NCBI RefSeq assembly: GCF_008329435.1
Contig: NZ_NPKN01000006.1
Coordinates: 62,670-126,669 of the forward strand
Direction of reading: 5' to 3'
Origin: Rhodanobacter sp. T12-5
Lineage (GTDB): Bacteria > Pseudomonadota > Gammaproteobacteria > Xanthomonadales > Rhodanobacteraceae
DNA length: 64,000 bases
Every line of letters begins with the position of its first letter. Within the stretch, counting starts at the first letter, position 1. The position numbers and the translations under genes are program-made. Shown here piece after piece: positions 7,769 through 49,014 of this stretch. The notes below the pieces were generated by a model. It worked only from the letters and a program-made list of their open reading frames with translations. It was not told where the DNA came from and ran no database searches.

Positions 7769-9076
7769 TCAGCCGACCGCCTGCAACACGAAACCGCAGC
7801 CGTTGGCCAGTTCAAGGAAACCGGGAAAGGACGTGGCGACATGACGGCAGTCGTTGATCCGCACCGGGCCATCGGCAACCAGACCGGCCACCGCGAAGCT
7901 CATCGCAATGCGATGGTCGAGATGACTTTCCACCACGCCGGCGCCGAGCCGGCCGCCGTGGATGATCGCACCATCCGGGGTTTCGTCGATCGCCACGCCG
8001 AGTGCGCGCAGGCCGGCAGCCATGGTCGCTATGCGGTCCGACTCCTTCACCCGCAACTCGCCTGCCCCACGAATGACCGTGCTGCCGCTGGCCATCGCGG
8101 CGGCAATGAAAAGGGCGGGAAACTCGTCGATCATGTCCGGTACCAGTACCTCGGGCAACTCGACCCCGTGCAACGGCGCGTGGCGCACCAGCAGATCGCC
8201 CACCGGCTCGCCGCCGCTCTCGCGCTCGTGTGCGATCGTGATGTCCGCACCCATCAGGCGCAGCGCCTGCAGCAGCCCGGTCCGCCGCGGATTCAGGCCG
8301 ACCGCAGGCAACCGCAGTGCGGACCCCTGGACGATGCTGGCGGCAACCATGAAGAACGCGGCCGAGGAAAAGTCGGCGGGCACGTCGACGTCGGTGGCAC
8401 GCAGCGCATGGCCGCCGGCAAGCTTCGCCCGACCCGGCGCAAAGCTGATCGGCGAGCCGAACGCGGCCAGCATGCGCTCGGTGTAGTCGCGGGTCGGATG
8501 CGGCTCGATGATCTCGGTTTCACCGGCGGCATACAGGCCGGCCAGCAACAGCGCGGATTTCACCTGGGCACTGGCCACCGGCAGTTCGTAGCGGATGCCG
8601 TGCAGGCGCCTGCCGCCGTGTACCTGTAGCGGCGGCAGGCCGTCGCGCGTGTCGATGCGCGCACCCATCAAGGCCAGCGGATCGGTCACCCGGCGCATCG
8701 GTCGCTGCGACAGTGACGCATCGCCAATCAGGCGACTGTCGAATTCCTGGCCGGCCAGCAGGCCGGTCAGCAGGCGCATGCCGGTGCCGGCGTTGCCACA
8801 GTCGAGCGGATCGGCTGAGCCGCGCAAGCCATGCAGGCCGACGCCCTGCACGACGCGATCGCCCGCTGCGGGTGCCTCGATATGCACGCCCAGCCTGGCC
8901 AGCACGGCGGCGGTGGCGCGGGTGTCCTCGCCTTCGAGAAAGCCATGTATGCGCGACTCCCCTTCGGCGATCGCGGCCAGCATCAAGGCGCGATGGGAGA
9001 TCGACTTGTCGCCGGGTATCTGCACGCTGCCGTGCAGTGGCGAACCCGATTCACTACTCCAGTCGAGACGATTCAA
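7769..9076 (-). CDS. aroA: 3-phosphoshikimate 1-carboxyvinyltransferase (EPSP synthase)
   Basis: 435 residues. Sixth step of the shikimate pathway, joining PEP to shikimate-3-phosphate. Visible signatures: [10 protein letters not shown] (about residue 21), [16 protein letters not shown] (about 95), and [19 protein letters not shown] in the second domain. Translation appears to begin at TTG: a GGAG lies 8 nt before it, and the nearest upstream ATG is closed by a stop after five codons. Together with pheA (27 bp upstream) and serC it forms an amino-acid operon. Confidence 0.97.
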
Positions 9077-9103
9077 GCGGCTTTCTCCATGCGCGTCATC
9101 GAC

Positions 9104-10192
9104 TCAGGGCAACGCCACCGGGTAGGAACCCAGCACGCGGATGGTTGCCGCCGATTCGCCGATGTCGTGCACTGCGGCCTGCAGCGCGTCGCCATCGATA
9201 TGGCCGGAGACGTCGATGAAGAACGCGTACTGCCACTTGCCGGTATGTGCCGGCCGCGATTCGATCCGGTTCAGGCTGATGCCATGCTTGGCGAACGGGC
9301 TGAGCACATCGTACAGAGCACCCGGCTTGTCGTTGACGGTGATCAGCAGCGAGGTGCGGTCGTTGCCCGACGGCGGGAACAGCGAGCGGCCGATGACCAG
9401 GAAACGCGTGGTGTTGTCGGCGCGATCCTCGATGCCTTGCGCCACGGCCTTGAGCCCGTAGATCTTGCCGGCGGTCTCGCCGGCGATCGCCGCTGCGTCA
9501 TCGGCATGTCGTGCCAGTCGCGCCGCTTCGGCATTGCTGCCGACCGCAACGCATTCGACACCCGGCAGGTTGATGCGCAACCAGGTCTTGCATTGCTGCA
9601 GCGACTGCGCATGTGCGTAGACGCGCTTGACATCGTCCAGCTTGCCGGTCAGCGAATGCAGGCATTGGTGCACGCGCAGTTCCACTTCGCCGCAGATGGT
9701 CGCCTCCGAGGTGAGGAACATGTCCAGGGTGACCTGGATCATGCCCTGCCCGGAATTCTCCACCGGCACCACGCCGAAATCGGCATGGCCGGCGGCGACC
9801 TCCTGGAACACCTCCTCGATGCTGCCCAGCGGCAGGCCGTAGGCGGCGTGGCCGAAATGCTTGCGCACGGCCTGTTCGCTGAAGGTGCCTTCCGGACCGA
9901 GAAAGCCGATCTTGAGCGGATCCTCCTGCGCCAGGCACGACGACATGATCTCGCGGAACAGCCGCACCATCTCGGCGTCGGAAAGCGGGCCGTCATTGCG
10001 GTCCACCACCATGCGCAACACATGGGCCTCGCGTTCGGGGCGGTAATAGTCGATGGCCGACAGCCCTGTCCCCTTGACCTTGGCGACCGTCTGCGCATGG
10101 TTCGCGCGCTCGGAAATCAGCTGCTGGATCTGCCGGTCGATGCTGTCGATGCGCTCGCGCATTTCGCTCAGCGGTGTCTTTGGGTCAGTCAT
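9104..10192 (-). CDS. pheA: Bifunctional chorismate mutase / prephenate dehydratase (P-protein)
   Basis: 362 residues. Converts chorismate through prephenate to phenylpyruvate. Domain order: AroQ-type chorismate mutase (residues 1-90, RIDSIDRQIQQLISERANHAQ), prephenate dehydratase (about 95-270, GPEGTFSEQA and the NTTRF motif near 263), and a C-terminal ACT regulatory domain (about 280-360) with the phenylalanine-binding ESRP motif. The ESRP motif implies feedback inhibition by phenylalanine. It sits between serC (75 bp upstream) and aroA. Confidence 0.97.
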   Translation of the reverse strand: MTDPKTPLSEMRERIDSIDRQIQQLISERANHAQTVAKVKGTGLSAIDYYRPEREAHVLRMVVDRNDGPLSDAEMVRLFREIMSSCLAQEDPLKIGFLGPEGTFSEQAVRKHFGHAAYGLPLGSIEEVFQEVAAGHADFGVVPVENSGQGMIQVTLDMFLTSEATICGEVELRVHQCLHSLTGKLDDVKRVYAHAQSLQQCKTWLRINLPGVECVAVGSNAEAARLARHADDAAAIAGETAGKIYGLKAVAQGIEDRADNTTRFLVIGRSLFPPSGNDRTSLLITVNDKPGALYDVLSPFAKHGISLNRIESRPAHTGKWQYAFFIDVSGHIDGDALQAAVHDIGESAATIRVLGSYPVALP

Positions 10193-41337: not shown

Positions 41338-42768
41338 ATGCTCAAGAAAACCTATCCCTACTACCTCGCCAACCAGCCGCAGACGTCGAAGGACATGCTC
41401 GACGTGCGCGACAAGTTCAGCGGCAAGCTAGCCACCCGCGTCGCCGTGCCGGATGCCAGGGTCACCGAGAAGGCGATCGCCGCCGCGGTGAAGGCCGCCA
41501 AGCCGATGCGGGAATACAAGCCGTGGGCGCGCCAGGCGGTGCTGCAGCATTGCGCGCAGCGCTTCGCCGAACGCCGCGACGAGCTCGCCGAGGCGCTGTG
41601 CATCGAGGCCGGCAAGCCGATCAAGGATGCCGCCGGCGAGGTGACCCGGCTGATCGAGACCTTCCGCATCGCCGCCGAGGAGGCCGTGCGCATCAACGGC
41701 GAGACGATCAACCTGGAACTGGCCAGCCGTCTGGACGGCTATCATGGCTACACGAAACGCGTGCCGCTGGGGCCGGTGTCGTTCATCACGCCGTTCAACT
41801 TCCCGCTGAACCTGGTGGCGCACAAGGTAGCGCCGGCGATCGCGGCCGGCTGCCCGTTCGTGCTGAAGCCGTCGGAGAAGACCCCGATCGGCGCACTGAT
41901 CATCGGCGAGGTGCTGGCCGAGACCGACTTGCCGAAGGGCGCGTTCTCGATCCTCACCCTGGACGGTGCGCATGCATCCCCGCTGGTCGAGGATCCGCGC
42001 TTCAAGCTGCTCTCCTTCACTGGTGGCCAGATCGGCTGGGACCTGAAGGCGCGCGCAGGGCACAAGAAGGTGACACTGGAATTGGGCGGCAATGCCGCGT
42101 GCATCGTCGACGCCGACCAGGGCCCGAAGCTGGACAAGGTGGTCGAGCGGCTGATCTTCGGCGCGTTCTACCAGTCCGGCCAGAGCTGCATCGGCGTGCA
42201 GCGCATCTATGCCCATGCCGACGTCTACGACACGCTGAAGCGCAAGCTGGTCGCCGCCACGAAGCAGCTCAAGGCCGGCGATCCGAAGGACAAGAACGTG
42301 TTCCTCGGCCCGATGATCGACGAGGCCGCCGCCGAGCGTCTGCATGGCTGGATCCTCGAAGCGAAAAAGGCTGGCGGCAGGATCCTCTGCGGCGGCAAGC
42401 GCAGCGGCAACATGCTCGACGCCACTCTGATGGAAGGCGTACCGGCCGACGCCAAAGCCAACACCATGGAAGCCTTCGGTCCGTTCGCCCTGCTCGCCCC
42501 GTTCGGGAAGTTCGACGACGCGATCGCAATGGTCAACGACTCCGATTACGGCCTGCAGGCCGGCATCTTCACCGACAGCCTCGCCCACGCGATGCGCGCA
42601 TGGAACGAACTTGAACAAGGTGGCGTGGTAGTCAACGACATCCCCAGCTTCCGCGTGGACAACATGCCCTACGGCGGCATCAAGCTGTCGGGCTTGGGCC
42701 GCGAAGGCGTGCGCTACGCGATCGAGGACATGAGCGAGATCCGGCTGATGGTGATGCGCGAATCGTGA
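41338..42768 (+). CDS. NAD(P)-dependent aldehyde dehydrogenase
   Basis: 476 residues of the ALDH superfamily. FITPFNFPLNLVAHKVAPAIAAG begins the coenzyme fold, KPSEKTPIGAL is the cofactor lysine region, general base Glu lies in TLELGGNAACIV (about 246) and catalytic Cys in YQSGQSCIGVQRIY (about 285). MPYGGIKLSGLGREG is the C-terminal signature. It oxidises an aldehyde to the acid; the substrate is unknown. The GGGAG ribosome site lies in the 13-bp gap after the acetolactate-synthase-like gene, so the two form an operon. Ends at a REP-like palindrome. Confidence 0.92.
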   Translation: MLKKTYPYYLANQPQTSKDMLDVRDKFSGKLATRVAVPDARVTEKAIAAAVKAAKPMREYKPWARQAVLQHCAQRFAERRDELAEALCIEAGKPIKDAAGEVTRLIETFRIAAEEAVRINGETINLELASRLDGYHGYTKRVPLGPVSFITPFNFPLNLVAHKVAPAIAAGCPFVLKPSEKTPIGALIIGEVLAETDLPKGAFSILTLDGAHASPLVEDPRFKLLSFTGGQIGWDLKARAGHKKVTLELGGNAACIVDADQGPKLDKVVERLIFGAFYQSGQSCIGVQRIYAHADVYDTLKRKLVAATKQLKAGDPKDKNVFLGPMIDEAAAERLHGWILEAKKAGGRILCGGKRSGNMLDATLMEGVPADAKANTMEAFGPFALLAPFGKFDDAIAMVNDSDYGLQAGIFTDSLAHAMRAWNELEQGGVVVNDIPSFRVDNMPYGGIKLSGLGREGVRYAIEDMSEIRLMVMRES

Positions 42769-43770: not shown

Positions 43771-45210
43771 ATGACCACTCTCGTCTTCGTCCACGGCTGG
43801 AGCGTCACCAGCACGTCCACTTATGGTCAGCTGCCGGAGCAACTGCAGCAGCAAGCGGCCGCGGCCGGCCTGTCGCTCACACTCGCCGATATCTGGCTGT
43901 CCGAATACGTCAGCTTCGACGATGCGGTCACCATGCCCGATCTGGTGCGCGCGTTCGATCATGCCTTGCGCGACCTGCATCTGCGCGATGCCAGCTTCGC
44001 CTGCATCACCCACTCGACCGGCGGCCCGGTGGTGCGTGAATGGCTGCGCGCGCAACGCGACAAGCCCGCCACGCACAGCACGATCAAGCTCAGCCACCTG
44101 GTGATGCTGGCCCCGGCGAATTACGGCTCGGCGCTGGCGCAACTCGGCAAGGGCATGCTGGGCCGGCTCAAGTCGTGGTTCGCCGGCGTCGATCCGGGCC
44201 AGCGCATTCTCGACTGGCTGGAACTGGGCAGCGCCGAATCGCTGTCGCTCAACCTCGACTACATCCACAGCGACGATCCGCTCAAACGAGGGCAGTTCCA
44301 GTTCGTGCTGATCGGCGACCGCCCGGACCGGTCGCTGTACGACCACCTCAACAGCTACACCGGCGAAGACGGGTCCGACGGCGTGGTGCGCATCGCGGCG
44401 GCCAATCTCAATGGCCAGCATGCCGTGCTGTCGCCGCAAGCCGATGCGTCCGGCGGCGTCGATGCGCTGGCGCTCACCCTCAGCCGGGGCCCGCGCTGTG
44501 CATTCAAGCTGATCGCCGGCGCGGCACACTCCGGCGAGGCCCACGGCATCATGGCCAGCGCCGCGCCCGCCACCGTGCAGGCGATCCTGCGCTGCCTGCT
44601 GATCCGCAGCGCCGACGATTACGCCGCACTCTGCGATGCGTTCGAGCGCGAAAACGCCGCGCGCGACGCGGACAAGGTGGAACTGGAACCGGCCGGCCCG
44701 TTCGCACCGCGCGTGCACATCCACGACCCGCGCAGCCAGCTGATCGTGCGCCTCACCGACGAAGCCGGCGAACCGCTGACCGGCGCCGGCTTCCTGCTCA
44801 CCGCCGGTATCCAGGCCAGCCCGGACCTCCTGCCGGCCGGCTTCATGCTCGACCGCCAGGCCAACTCGCACAACCGCACCACCATTTCGCTGTTCCTCGA
44901 CCACAGCCTGCTGGCCGGCGACGACCGCGTTGCCGATCCACGCAACAGCCGCAAGACGCTGCGCCCTGCCGTCGCCAGCCATCGTCCCTACGGCGCCAGC
45001 GTGCAGCCGCTCGACCTCAGCGGCCTGGTGCACCACGCACTGGCAAAAAGCGTTGCGCGCGACGACCTTTTCAGCATGCTCGGTCCGCACCAGACCACCG
45101 TCCTCGACGTGGTACTGCCGCGCAAGATCCACGAAGGCGTGTTCCGGCTGACCCAGCGGTTGACGCCAGAGGACTTCAGCGAGCCAGTCCCGGGTCCGGT
45201 GATCGAATAG
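43771..45210 (+). CDS. Alpha/beta hydrolase, lipase/phospholipase-like, with C-terminal domain
   Basis: 479 residues, no signal peptide. The N-terminal half (about 1-265) is an alpha/beta hydrolase: LVFVHGWSVTSTSTYG holds the oxyanion strand (HGW), and the nucleophile lies in CITHSTGGPVVREWL (Ser in H-S-T-G-G, about residue 75). HLVMLAPANYGSALAQLG resembles lipases. An Asp in TGEDGSDGVVRIAA and a His in GAAHSGEAHGIM could complete the triad. The C-terminal half (about 300-479) looks all-beta and is not recognised. It could be a cytoplasmic lipase or a secreted effector; no secretion gene is near. CAGGAGC precedes the ATG. Confidence 0.65.
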   Translation: MTTLVFVHGWSVTSTSTYGQLPEQLQQQAAAAGLSLTLADIWLSEYVSFDDAVTMPDLVRAFDHALRDLHLRDASFACITHSTGGPVVREWLRAQRDKPATHSTIKLSHLVMLAPANYGSALAQLGKGMLGRLKSWFAGVDPGQRILDWLELGSAESLSLNLDYIHSDDPLKRGQFQFVLIGDRPDRSLYDHLNSYTGEDGSDGVVRIAAANLNGQHAVLSPQADASGGVDALALTLSRGPRCAFKLIAGAAHSGEAHGIMASAAPATVQAILRCLLIRSADDYAALCDAFERENAARDADKVELEPAGPFAPRVHIHDPRSQLIVRLTDEAGEPLTGAGFLLTAGIQASPDLLPAGFMLDRQANSHNRTTISLFLDHSLLAGDDRVADPRNSRKTLRPAVASHRPYGASVQPLDLSGLVHHALAKSVARDDLFSMLGPHQTTVLDVVLPRKIHEGVFRLTQRLTPEDFSEPVPGPVIE

Positions 45211-45588
45211 GCACCGAAAACTCCCTGTTTGCAGGCAGCGGGTGGCTCTGCTAAGCGTATTGGAGCGTGCATCCGCGGAAAATTGCGATATCGCCGGCCG
45301 GGTGGCGTCATCCAAGCTCGACCACCGGAAGGCCGACAACCCGACTCAGGACCATGCCGCCGCACCACGTCGGCGGCACATTCGAGAAGTTGTGAGTATC
45401 AACAGCTTCTGCGTCCTTCGCGGCAGCCTGGCCGATGGGCAACGCCGGCTGACCGACCCGGTGTCCGATCCCGCGTGGAAACCCGATGGATAGGCGATAC
45501 TGCGCATCCCCGACCTCAGCAGTCACGCCAACGCCGTTCGGGTCCATTCCAACTGGCGACCTGCGGCATTCGTCGATCCGACCCCGGC
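45211..45588. other. Gene-free stretch
   Basis: 378 bp before the GH18-deacetylase-synthase gene. No coding-like frame, strong promoter, RNA or repeat is evident on either strand. Confidence 0.5.
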
Positions 45589-48500
45589 ATGCAAAAGAAA
45601 CCGATCTTCTTCGACCCCACCGGCCGGCGCGCCAGCCATGTCTCGCGTCTGGCACTGCTCGCCGGCGTGATCAGCACGCTGTTCGTGGTGGCATGCGCCG
45701 CCAGCCTTTTCGTCGGGCCGAACATGGTCGGCCTGCATATCGGCGAACACGCCAGGACCCGCCACGCCCTGGCCGGGGTGAAGGCCGCCGCGCCGGAACT
45801 GCTGAAGCCGGCGGCGAAGCTGGCCGCGGAAGTGCGCGCACGGCAGAAGCAGCTGCACGCCCCGCGCACGCATGCCAGCAAGGCGGCCGCCTTGCACATC
45901 CCGCCGCCATCGCTGGACAAGCCCGCCGACCGGCCGCTGGCGATCGGCTTCTACGTCAACTGGGACGACAGCAGCTACCCGTCGCTGAAGCGCGCGCTGC
46001 CCACGCTGGATTGGGTGATCCCGACCTGGATGAGCGTGAGCGGCGCGGACATGGCGCTGCATACCAGCATCGACGCCAAGGCGCTGAACCTGATCCGCAC
46101 GCAGAAGCCGTCCACCCCGATCCTGCCGCTGCTGCAAAACGCGGTTGGCGGCACCTGGGACGGTCCGGGCCTGGCGCGCCTGCTGGCCGATCCCTCGATG
46201 CGCCAGGCCCGCATCGCGCAGATCGTCGCGTTCCTTTCCGCCAACCATTTCCAAGGCGTGACGATCGACTTCGAGGACATCCCGGCAAGCGCGCAACCGG
46301 ACCTCAAGGCGTTCCTGTCCGAACTCAACAATGCTTTCGATCCGCACGGCTGGGGCATCGTGCTGTCGGTGCCATTCGACGACGCCGACTGGGACTACGC
46401 CGGCTACGCCGACATCGTCGACTTCGAATTGCTGATGGCCTACGACCAGCACTGGGCCGGCAAGGACCCGGGCAGCATCGCCGCCGAAGACTGGTTCGAG
46501 CAGACGCTGGACAAGCGCATGAAGACGCTCGATCCGGACCAGACCATCGTGGCGATCGGCAGCTACGGCTACGACTGGTCGCACGGACAGAATGCCGAGG
46601 CACTGACCTTCCAGGACGCGATGGACCGCGCCGCCGATGCGCAGGCCGAGATCAGCTTCGATCCGGACACGCAGAACCCGCACTTCTCCTACAGCGAAGA
46701 CGACGGCAGCACGCACCAGGTCTGGTTCCTCGACGGTGCCACGGCGTACAACCAGATCCACGCCGCCGACGACTACAAGCCCTACGGCTACGCCCTTTGG
46801 CGGCTGGGCTCGGAAGATCCGTCGGTCTGGTCGGTGCTCGGTCGCAACTACGGTGCGGCCGCACCGGACCAGTTGCGCACGATCGGCCAGGGCCAGGACA
46901 TCGACATCGAGGGCCAGGGCGAGGTGCTGGAAATCGCCTCGCAACCGTCGCCCGGCGCGCGCACCATCGAACTGGACAAGGACGATGGCAGCATCGACGA
47001 CGAAAGCTACACCGCCCTGCCCAGCTCCTACGTGATCCAGCGCGCCGGCACCCTGCCGCACAAGATCGCACTGACCTTCGACGACGGCCCCGACCCGGAG
47101 TGGACGCCGCAGATCCTCGACATCCTCAAGGCGAAGCACGTACCGGCGACGTTCTTCATCATCGGCGCGAACGCCGAGATGTCGCCGCGGCTGGTGCAGC
47201 GCGAGGTCGCCGAAGGACACGACGTCGGCAACCACACCTTCACCCACCCGAACCTGGGCGACAGCCCGCCGGGCATCGTGGCGCTGGAGCTCAACGCCAC
47301 CCAGCGGCTGTTCGAAGCACTCACCGGCCACTCGATGCGGCTGTTCCGCGCGCCCTACTTCGGCGATGCCGAGCCGACCACCGCCGACGAACTGGTGCCG
47401 ATCCAGATCGCGCAGAAAATGGGCTACCTCTCGGTTGGCCTGCATGTCGATGCCGAAGACTGGCAGCGCCCCGGCGTCGACGCCATTGTCCATAACGTGC
47501 TCGGCGGCATCGAAACCACCAACCCGGATCGCAAGGGTCAGGTGGTCCTGCTGCACGACGGCGGCGGCGAGCGTTCGCAGACGATTGCCGCGTTGCCGCG
47601 CATCATTGACGGCCTGCGCGCGCAGGGCTACGACTTCGTCACGGTGTCGGCGCTGGCCGGCCTCACCCGCGCGCAGACCATGCCGGAACTTCCGCCCGGC
47701 TCGCTGTCGCAATGGGCCGATCGTTCGGTGTTCCTGGCGCTGGGATGGTTCGGCCATTTCATCCGCTGGCTGCTGACCGCCGCCATCACCCTCGGTGTCG
47801 CTCGACTACTGCTGCTCGGCGGCCTCGCCCTGCTCAACCGTGCACGCGAACGACGCCGCGTGCCGCCGGTGCTCGGCGAAGATCCGCCGCTGGTATCCGT
47901 GCTGATCCCCGCCTACAACGAGGAGAAGGTGATCGCCAGCTCGATCCGCCAGATCCTCCGCAGCCGCTACCGGAATCTCGAGATCATCGTGGTCGACGAC
48001 GGCTCCATCGACGCCACCTCGGCGGTGGTCACCGAGCACTATGCAGACGATCCGCGCGTGCGGCTCATCACCATTCCCAATGGCGGCAAGGCGCATGCGG
48101 TCAACACCGCACTGCGCGAATCGAACGGTGCCGTGGTGGTCGCGCTGGACGCCGATACCCAGTTCGAACCCGACACCATCCCGCGTCTGGTGCGCTGGTT
48201 CGTCGACCCCGGGGTCGGCGCCGTGGCCGGCAACGCCAAGGTCGGCAACCGCATCAACCTGATCACGCTGTGGCAGGCACTGGAATACATCACCGCGCAA
48301 AACCTGGAACGTCGCGCGCTGGCGGCATTGGGTGCGATCACCGTGGTGCCCGGCGCCGTCGGCGCATGGCGACGCGAGGCGCTGGAACTGCTTGGCGGCT
48401 TTCCCGCCGATACCCTGGCCGAAGACCAGGACCTCACCATCGCCGTGCAGAAAGCCGGTTACCACGCCCTGTTCGACGCCGATGCGATCGCCTGGACCGA

Positions 48501-49014
48501 AGCCCCCGACACCGCCCGCGGCCTCGCCCGCCAGCGATTCCGCTGGGCCTACGGCACCCTGCAATGCCTGTGGAAACACCGCAACGCCACCTTCAACCCG
48601 CGCTACGGCGCGCTCGGCACGATCGCCTTGCCGCAGGTGTGGCTGTTCCAGATTCTCTTCTCGGTGGCGTCGCCGCTGGTCGATCTGGTGCTCGTGTGGC
48701 AGATCGTCGGCACCGGCCTGGATTACCTGCAGCATCGCGGCCAATTCGACGACACCAACCTCATCAGGATGCTGGTGTTCTACGCCGCCTTCATGGCCGT
48801 CGACCTGGCCGCCGCCGCGCTCGCCTTCGCGATGGAAAAGAAGGAAAAGTGGAGCCTGCTGTGGTGGCTCGTCCTGCAACGCTTCGGCTACCGCCAGCTG
48901 ATGTACTACGTGGTGGTGCGCTCGGTATGGACAGCCATTCGCGGACCCTCGGTGGGCTGGGGCAAACAGGAGCGCAAGGCGACCGTGAGGTCAGACGAGA
49001 CGTTGGCATCCTGA
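45589..49014 (+). CDS. Trifunctional membrane protein: GH18 + polysaccharide deacetylase + GT2 synthase
   Basis: 1141 residues. Order: cytoplasmic tail; membrane helix (about 20-43, LALLAGVISTLFVVACAASLFV); periplasmic GH18-type barrel (about 115-420) with catalytic Glu in TIDFED near 228 and a YaaH/SleL-like outline; NodB deacetylase domain (about 490-690) with TFDDGPD near 497, HTFTHP and RAPYFGD; membrane helix near 715-745; family-2 glycosyltransferase (about 765-990) with SVLIPAYNEE, DAD near 853, EDQD near 945 and QRFRW near 982; then membrane helices to the end. The GT2 part resembles chitin, hyaluronan and poly-GlcNAc synthases. Probably makes, deacetylates and cuts a beta-linked amino-sugar polymer; product unproved. 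Start at MQKKPIFFDP. Confidence 0.85.
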   Translation: MQKKPIFFDPTGRRASHVSRLALLAGVISTLFVVACAASLFVGPNMVGLHIGEHARTRHALAGVKAAAPELLKPAAKLAAEVRARQKQLHAPRTHASKAAALHIPPPSLDKPADRPLAIGFYVNWDDSSYPSLKRALPTLDWVIPTWMSVSGADMALHTSIDAKALNLIRTQKPSTPILPLLQNAVGGTWDGPGLARLLADPSMRQARIAQIVAFLSANHFQGVTIDFEDIPASAQPDLKAFLSELNNAFDPHGWGIVLSVPFDDADWDYAGYADIVDFELLMAYDQHWAGKDPGSIAAEDWFEQTLDKRMKTLDPDQTIVAIGSYGYDWSHGQNAEALTFQDAMDRAADAQAEISFDPDTQNPHFSYSEDDGSTHQVWFLDGATAYNQIHAADDYKPYGYALWRLGSEDPSVWSVLGRNYGAAAPDQLRTIGQGQDIDIEGQGEVLEIASQPSPGARTIELDKDDGSIDDESYTALPSSYVIQRAGTLPHKIALTFDDGPDPEWTPQILDILKAKHVPATFFIIGANAEMSPRLVQREVAEGHDVGNHTFTHPNLGDSPPGIVALELNATQRLFEALTGHSMRLFRAPYFGDAEPTTADELVPIQIAQKMGYLSVGLHVDAEDWQRPGVDAIVHNVLGGIETTNPDRKGQVVLLHDGGGERSQTIAALPRIIDGLRAQGYDFVTVSALAGLTRAQTMPELPPGSLSQWADRSVFLALGWFGHFIRWLLTAAITLGVARLLLLGGLALLNRARERRRVPPVLGEDPPLVSVLIPAYNEEKVIASSIRQILRSRYRNLEIIVVDDGSIDATSAVVTEHYADDPRVRLITIPNGGKAHAVNTALRESNGAVVVALDADTQFEPDTIPRLVRWFVDPGVGAVAGNAKVGNRINLITLWQALEYITAQNLERRALAALGAITVVPGAVGAWRREALELLGGFPADTLAEDQDLTIAVQKAGYHALFDADAIAWTEAPDTARGLARQRFRWAYGTLQCLWKHRNATFNPRYGALGTIALPQVWLFQILFSVASPLVDLVLVWQIVGTGLDYLQHRGQFDDTNLIRMLVFYAAFMAVDLAAAALAFAMEKKEKWSLLWWLVLQRFGYRQLMYYVVVRSVWTAIRGPSVGWGKQERKATVRSDETLAS

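Follow-up and report, generated by a model that had tools for sequence, protein, structure and literature searches.

The locus described here raises the question of whether a single membrane protein can both build an amino-sugar polymer and edit it. It lies in a window of 64,000 nucleotides from the soil bacterium Rhodanobacter sp. T12-5 (assembly GCF_008329435.1, contig NZ_NPKN01000006.1, positions 62,670 to 126,669), which is the whole stretch of DNA analysed, and encodes a protein with a glycoside hydrolase family 18 (GH18) module, a NodB-type deacetylase of carbohydrate esterase family 4 (CE4) and a family 2 glycosyltransferase (GT2). We consider it probable, at roughly 0.6, that this protein is at once the synthase and the deacetylase of an N-acetylglucosamine (GlcNAc)-type polymer at the inner membrane. 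The open reading frame (ORF) is open from 45229 to 49014 on the plus strand, and the ATG at 45589 gives a coding sequence of 45589-49014 and a product of 1141 residues, whose N-terminal start MQKKPIFFDPTGRR lines up with the starts in close relatives.

The first-pass annotation, made from the letters alone, had claimed that the three enzymes are fused with their catalytic residues intact, and both the Pfam matches, each above its curated cut-off, and the motifs bear this out. GH18 matches residues 120-407 (E 1.4e-15), Polysacc_deac_1 residues 490-598 (E 2e-33) and Glyco_tranf_2_3 residues 766-989 (E 1.7e-34); the motifs TIDFED (225), TFDDGPD (496), HTFTHP (549) and LLHDGG (654) belong to GH18 and NodB, and SVLIPAYNEE (770), LDADT (853), LAEDQD (943) and QRFRW (982) to GT2. 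The GH18 module (residues 115-424, 45931-46860, PF00704) shares the stretch GVTIDFE with YdhD (3cz8), has fold matches to 5jh8 and SleL (4s3j) and carries the acid Glu229 with Asp227, Tyr285, Asp286 and Trp404, the YdhD/SleL-type set. The NodB/CE4 module (residues 490-690, 47056-47658, PF01522), which matches peptidoglycan GlcNAc deacetylases and the structure 7fbw, has the complete set D498, D499, H549, H553, R587, D624 and H656, with the Asp-His-His metal site and the catalytic motifs expected of these deacetylases. In the GT2 module (residues 766-1000, 47884-48588, PF13641/PF00535) we found Asp804, Asp854/856, Asp946 and QRFRW at 982-986; DDGS, DxD, ED, QxxRW and the flanking predicted membrane helices of processive GT2 synthases are all present.

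These residues were followed through an alignment of 257 rows (241 proteins and 16 locus translations), in which relatives of two queries, both with the GH18 site intact, are over-represented. The NodB and GT2 sets are each complete in 256 rows, and the acid residue at 229 is retained as Glu in 249 of the 254 rows having a letter at that position; since this conservation is near-universal, the motifs go beyond chance. The residue two before D227 is Thr in the window protein and Asn or Thr in 241 of the rows that have a letter there.

Hydropathy with flanking charges, together with the helices of a structure model, predicts the GH18 and NodB modules in the periplasm and the GT2 module in the cytosol, which agrees with the orientation proposed earlier. 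The first transmembrane segment (TM1, residues 24-42, 45658-45714; model helix 13-42) is a predicted N-in signal anchor. At the GH18/NodB junction lies a five-stranded linker module (residues 430-486, 46876-47046; model strands 438-486) with conserved G442, G456 and P478, for which no Pfam family was reported. The second segment (TM2, about residues 715-749, 47731-47835; model helix 706-756) is followed by NRARERRR, predicted inside, and the C-terminal helices (residues 1008-1118, 48610-48942) contain transmembrane segments at 1022-1040 and 1062-1080. All these features are on the plus strand. The structure model has a predicted template-modelling score (pTM) of 0.54, and its placement of the modules relative to each other was left unused.

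In the mechanism that we propose, the cytosolic GT2 would polymerise a GlcNAc-type chain and its membrane helices would extrude it; NodB, held in the periplasm by TM1 and TM2 on either side of it, would partly de-N-acetylate the emerging chain; and GH18 would bind the chain and, where the acid Glu is present as in the window lineage, could cut it, setting its length or releasing the product. Judging from the relatives, the polymer would be partly deacetylated poly-GlcNAc, either beta-1,6-linked as in the poly-N-acetylglucosamine (PNAG) reported for MatB, or beta-1,4-linked and chitosan-like.

QxxRW is a mark of processive GT2 enzymes, and from this motif and a hyaluronan/cellulose synthase-like fold the GT2 module is predicted to be processive. 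The same module bears on a quite improbable alternative, a cell-wall or glycolipid enzyme in which GT2 would transfer single sugar residues and peptidoglycan would be the substrate of NodB and GH18. The structure match of highest Z for the GT2 part is indeed a mannosyltransferase, NodB is closest to peptidoglycan GlcNAc deacetylases and GH18 lies near spore-cortex enzymes; however, QxxRW is present, the membrane helices align with those of hyaluronan synthase, and the protein is patchily distributed, unlike core wall enzymes. With its own genome included, it was found in 29 of 197 genomes and 9 of 26 genera of the family, and in 7 of 299 genomes of the phylum, one of the seven through the GT2 part alone; within the genus, 16 of 17 genomes among the rows listed have it.

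Support for a polymerising protein comes from the nearest studied kind, the NodB-GT2 protein MatB of Streptomyces (SCO2962 / SLI_3306). The portions of two papers that deal with it (PMC5972031, PMC4391728) describe MatB with two functional domains, an intracellular GT2 and an extracellular CE4, with a partner, MatA, and with PNAG as product; matA and matB mutants lack F598 staining, and dispersin B removes the staining. The window protein, with its predicted topology, likewise has a NodB-like CE4 outside and a PgaC-like GT2 inside on one chain. MatB-like NodB-GT2 ORFs from genomes match it at 38-43% from residue 463 onward, the GH18 part being uncovered, and the two kinds fall into separate groups of the GT2 tree, where 24 fusion rows stand apart from 14 Streptomyces-type rows (99/98), with a bootstrap that is not fully settled; 10 further rows may fall inside, and PgaC and NodC are on long, unresolved branches.

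A beta-1,4 linkage would allow another product, short and partly deacetylated chito-oligosaccharides that are periplasmic or secreted and not a matrix polymer, made by what would amount to NodC, NodB and a chitinase in one. Rhizobial NodC and NodB are a GT2 synthase and a deacetylase of the same superfamilies as the fusion modules, but they are separate proteins and have no chitinase module. We regard this product as unlikely. In its favour, the NodB module is nearer to a NodB-like ORF of S. meliloti pSymA (40% identity, 137 bits) than to the E. coli PgaB ORF (26 bits), the GH18 is of the YdhD/SleL/chitinase type, and a GH18 that is intact would cut a beta-1,4 chain down in length. On the other hand, the protein scores 185 bits with the PgaC_IcaA equivalog model (TIGR03937; below the curated cut-off of 422.3 bits) against 121.5 bits with that of NodC, MatB shows that a PgdA/NodB-like deacetylase with a PgaC-like GT2 can go with PNAG, and many homologues have no GH18 active site left.

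This loss also bears on the claim that the protein trims its product outside, which fits the window protein with its Glu229 set and is not a property of the family. In the 120 closest proteins listed for the Granulicella homologue (L024), the position of Glu229 is Gln in 117, Leu in 3 and Glu in none; Asp, Tyr and Asp are kept beside the Gln in 83, while the NodB positions are intact in 119-120 and those of GT2 in all 120. We call this set Acidobacteriaceae-type, by the source names of some of the 120 matches and by the family of Granulicella. The second lineage is the order of genome G083, in which 19 of 244 genomes have a homologue. We infer that this order is Rhodobacterales because a Boseongicola locus (L027) falls with the G083 group (100/97) and Boseongicola belongs to the Rhodobacterales. 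The full GH18 residue set is present in none of these 19 loci (L151 and L015 are the same gene, as are L167 and L016), and position 229 is not Glu in 17; L164 and L169 have an aligned Glu but differ at the partner Asp and at the Tyr-Asp pair. The NodB set survives in 17 of the 19, with L168 and L169 lacking it, and the GT2 set in 18, the exception being L164, which is cut by an in-frame stop. L168 and L169 keep the GT2 set and a length of about 1120-1150 residues with both NodB and GH18 residues lost.

Both lineages weigh against simple trimming: with the GH18 site lost in two large lineages, trimming is therefore not a conserved function of the family, whereas the GT2 residues are intact wherever fully covered, also where GH18 is lost. 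On a tree of hand-picked rows, 19 with the site lost and 16 with it intact, the loss takes two changes; a single change suffices on none of 200 bootstrap trees, although the starred branches taken by themselves force just one. GH18 enzymes with an E-to-Q mutation bind oligomers but do not cut them, and PDB titles record such mutants crystallised with GlcNAc oligomers. The GH18 module may act partly as a glycan-binding guide. We tentatively extend this to a broader view, which is possible rather than probable: on two or more occasions the chitinase module of the family would have become a lectin that holds the glycan, through a fixed Glu-to-Gln replacement in the Acidobacteriaceae-type proteins and through full erosion in the Rhodobacterales with a separate DUF3131 protein joined to the system, and a periplasmic hydrolase fold would serve inner-membrane synthases in general as a guide for the chain, cutting being optional.

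All 19 loci of the G083 order have a DUF3131 gene beside the fusion gene, within the stretch retrieved around it (L149:11039-13612; L150:11639-14089; further ones in L170-L186); none of the 30 other loci compared has one, though some of these are short contigs. The DUF3131 profile had no match in the genome of the window, but as it was also unmatched in all 14 controls this does not establish absence; the protein had no significant relative among PDB sequences (best E 0.15). A small gene with no Pfam family (L150:14104-14796) recurs in 14 of the 19 loci bearing DUF3131. Elsewhere, a divergent upstream gene of about 470 residues, weakly PMT_2-like and under the cut-off, occurs in the three loci L020, L022 and L024 (cluster c15), all with acidobacterial homologues. 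In L028, titled Methylobacterium segetis, a Wza-type Poly_export/SLBB gene (8228-9583) lies directly downstream of the homologue, which hints at an export route for that protein.

How far does the system extend in Rhodanobacter itself? The first-pass annotation had proposed a self-contained system with no flanking polysaccharide genes. A scan of neighbours from 36.7 to 56.7 kb, in which not all ORFs were covered, met no polysaccharide genes: the proteins there are a PLD-like protein, exonuclease VII, a thiamine pyrophosphate (TPP) enzyme, a DUF218 protein, a DUF7379-like protein, MarR, DUF1456, a YfbK-like vWA protein, a sigma factor, an unassigned protein, a UPF0029 protein and an ABC exporter, and the gene at 41338-42768 falls into one cluster with an aldehyde dehydrogenase. 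The commonest neighbour cluster occurs in just 10 of the 33 loci compared, the window included. The DUF7379-like gene (under the cut-off; 43771-45210, plus strand) lies on the same strand 379 bases upstream of the ATG; it is kept in only 7 of 17 loci of the family, and we rejected it as a general partner, though it is possibly one in Rhodanobacter only.

Profile searches of the whole genome gave a similar picture. The fusion protein is the sole NodB and the sole GH18 match, and it is the highest of 12 matches to the PgaC model, none above the cut-off. No pga gene stands beside it: PgaA gave six weak matches in the genome (up to 26.8 bits, against a cut-off of 366.65 bits), GHL13, the hydrolase domain of PgaB, and PgaD gave none, and the BcsC C-terminus gave none above the cut-off. 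In the control genomes, E. coli exceeded the cut-offs for GHL13 and PgaD, and one genome that for PgaA. Membership in a pga operon was rejected, as PgaA, the PgaB hydrolase and PgaD all lack a match above the cut-off. One Wza-type Poly_export protein is encoded on a different contig, and with the PgaA and BcsC profiles no outer-membrane route for the product was identified; the system could be self-contained no further than the inner-membrane steps of synthesis and editing. The genome also encodes a second synthase-glycosidase fusion of 953 residues (L003:1015-3876, contig C8), which like the fusion joins a glycan synthase to a glycosidase-family module, but that module is GH17 and there is no NodB; its GT2 is on a very long branch of the GT2 tree.

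The Pga/Ica systems likewise bring a deacetylase, a hydrolase and a GT2 synthase (PgaB and PgaC) to one polymer, as we propose for the fusion, but as separate proteins with the porin PgaA and the subunit PgaD, neither matched above the cut-off in the genome of the window, and with GHL13, a different family from GH18, as the PgaB hydrolase. Gram-negative PgaB-like clades with glycosyltransferase fusions, no pgaA or pgaD and an unconfirmed polymer have been described (PMC7112194); in the part of that paper that treats them, a NodB-type deacetylase is fused to the glycosyltransferase with no porin gene, as here, GH18 goes unmentioned, and the role of the PgaB hydrolase activity is called unknown. 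The order GH18-CE4-GT2 has been in print since 2012 for Acetivibrio cellulolyticus (ZP_09465738), and CE4-GH18-GT2 is given for Sphingobacterium multivorum w15 (PMC3413522, PMC7065263); the relevant entries list the same three families as in the window protein with no function, and the likeness is one of listing alone. To the first-pass caveat that the architecture might already be well characterised, the answer is that it is widespread and listed, and that no functional study of the GH18-NodB-GT2 triple fusion was found in literature covering few subscription journals.

Its spread is wide. The best homologue is 98% identical, and the best named matches are Rhodanobacter proteins (83-90%). Three family members used as queries returned 7607, 7983 and 7995 proteins at E <= 0.001, from about 8000 candidates scored each, with homologues in Pseudomonadota, Bacteroidota and Acidobacteriota. 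Most of the best 120 listed per query span the full length and have NodB and GT2 domains, and matches beyond these may include proteins of fewer modules; with thousands of homologues, the fusion is therefore not rare, and we rejected that view. The genome scan confirmed at least 509 relatives, from which 80 loci were kept. Twelve (L018-L029; L025 and L027 partial) are GH18 fusions with alphaproteobacterial, acidobacteriotal and Bacteroidota titles and one Arthrobacter title, whose protein groups with L014 and a Zymomonas record; 14 (L030-L042, L045) have NodB and GT2 in one ORF, with titles from Streptomyces and other Actinomycetota; and the remaining 54 include seven with GT2 and no NodB in the ORF (L043, L044, L046-L050), which entered the GT2 tree. 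In a NodB+GT2 tree, the window protein falls in a clade of 10 rows (100/99) with proteins titled Kaistia, Rhodospirillales, Alphaproteobacteria and Zymomonas. This mixed clade and the patchy distribution suggest horizontal transfer of the fusion gene.

If our reading is correct, one gene would both make and edit the chain, tasks divided in E. coli among PgaB, PgaC and PgaD, a one-gene design suited to transfer between phyla and to the production of defined amino-sugar polymers in other hosts. In addition, a natural series of GH18 modules, from intact through Gln-substituted to eroded, offers a way to test why a hydrolase is retained beside the synthase in exopolysaccharide systems; the lineage-dependent cutting by GH18 and the pairing with DUF3131 are the points most worth taking further.
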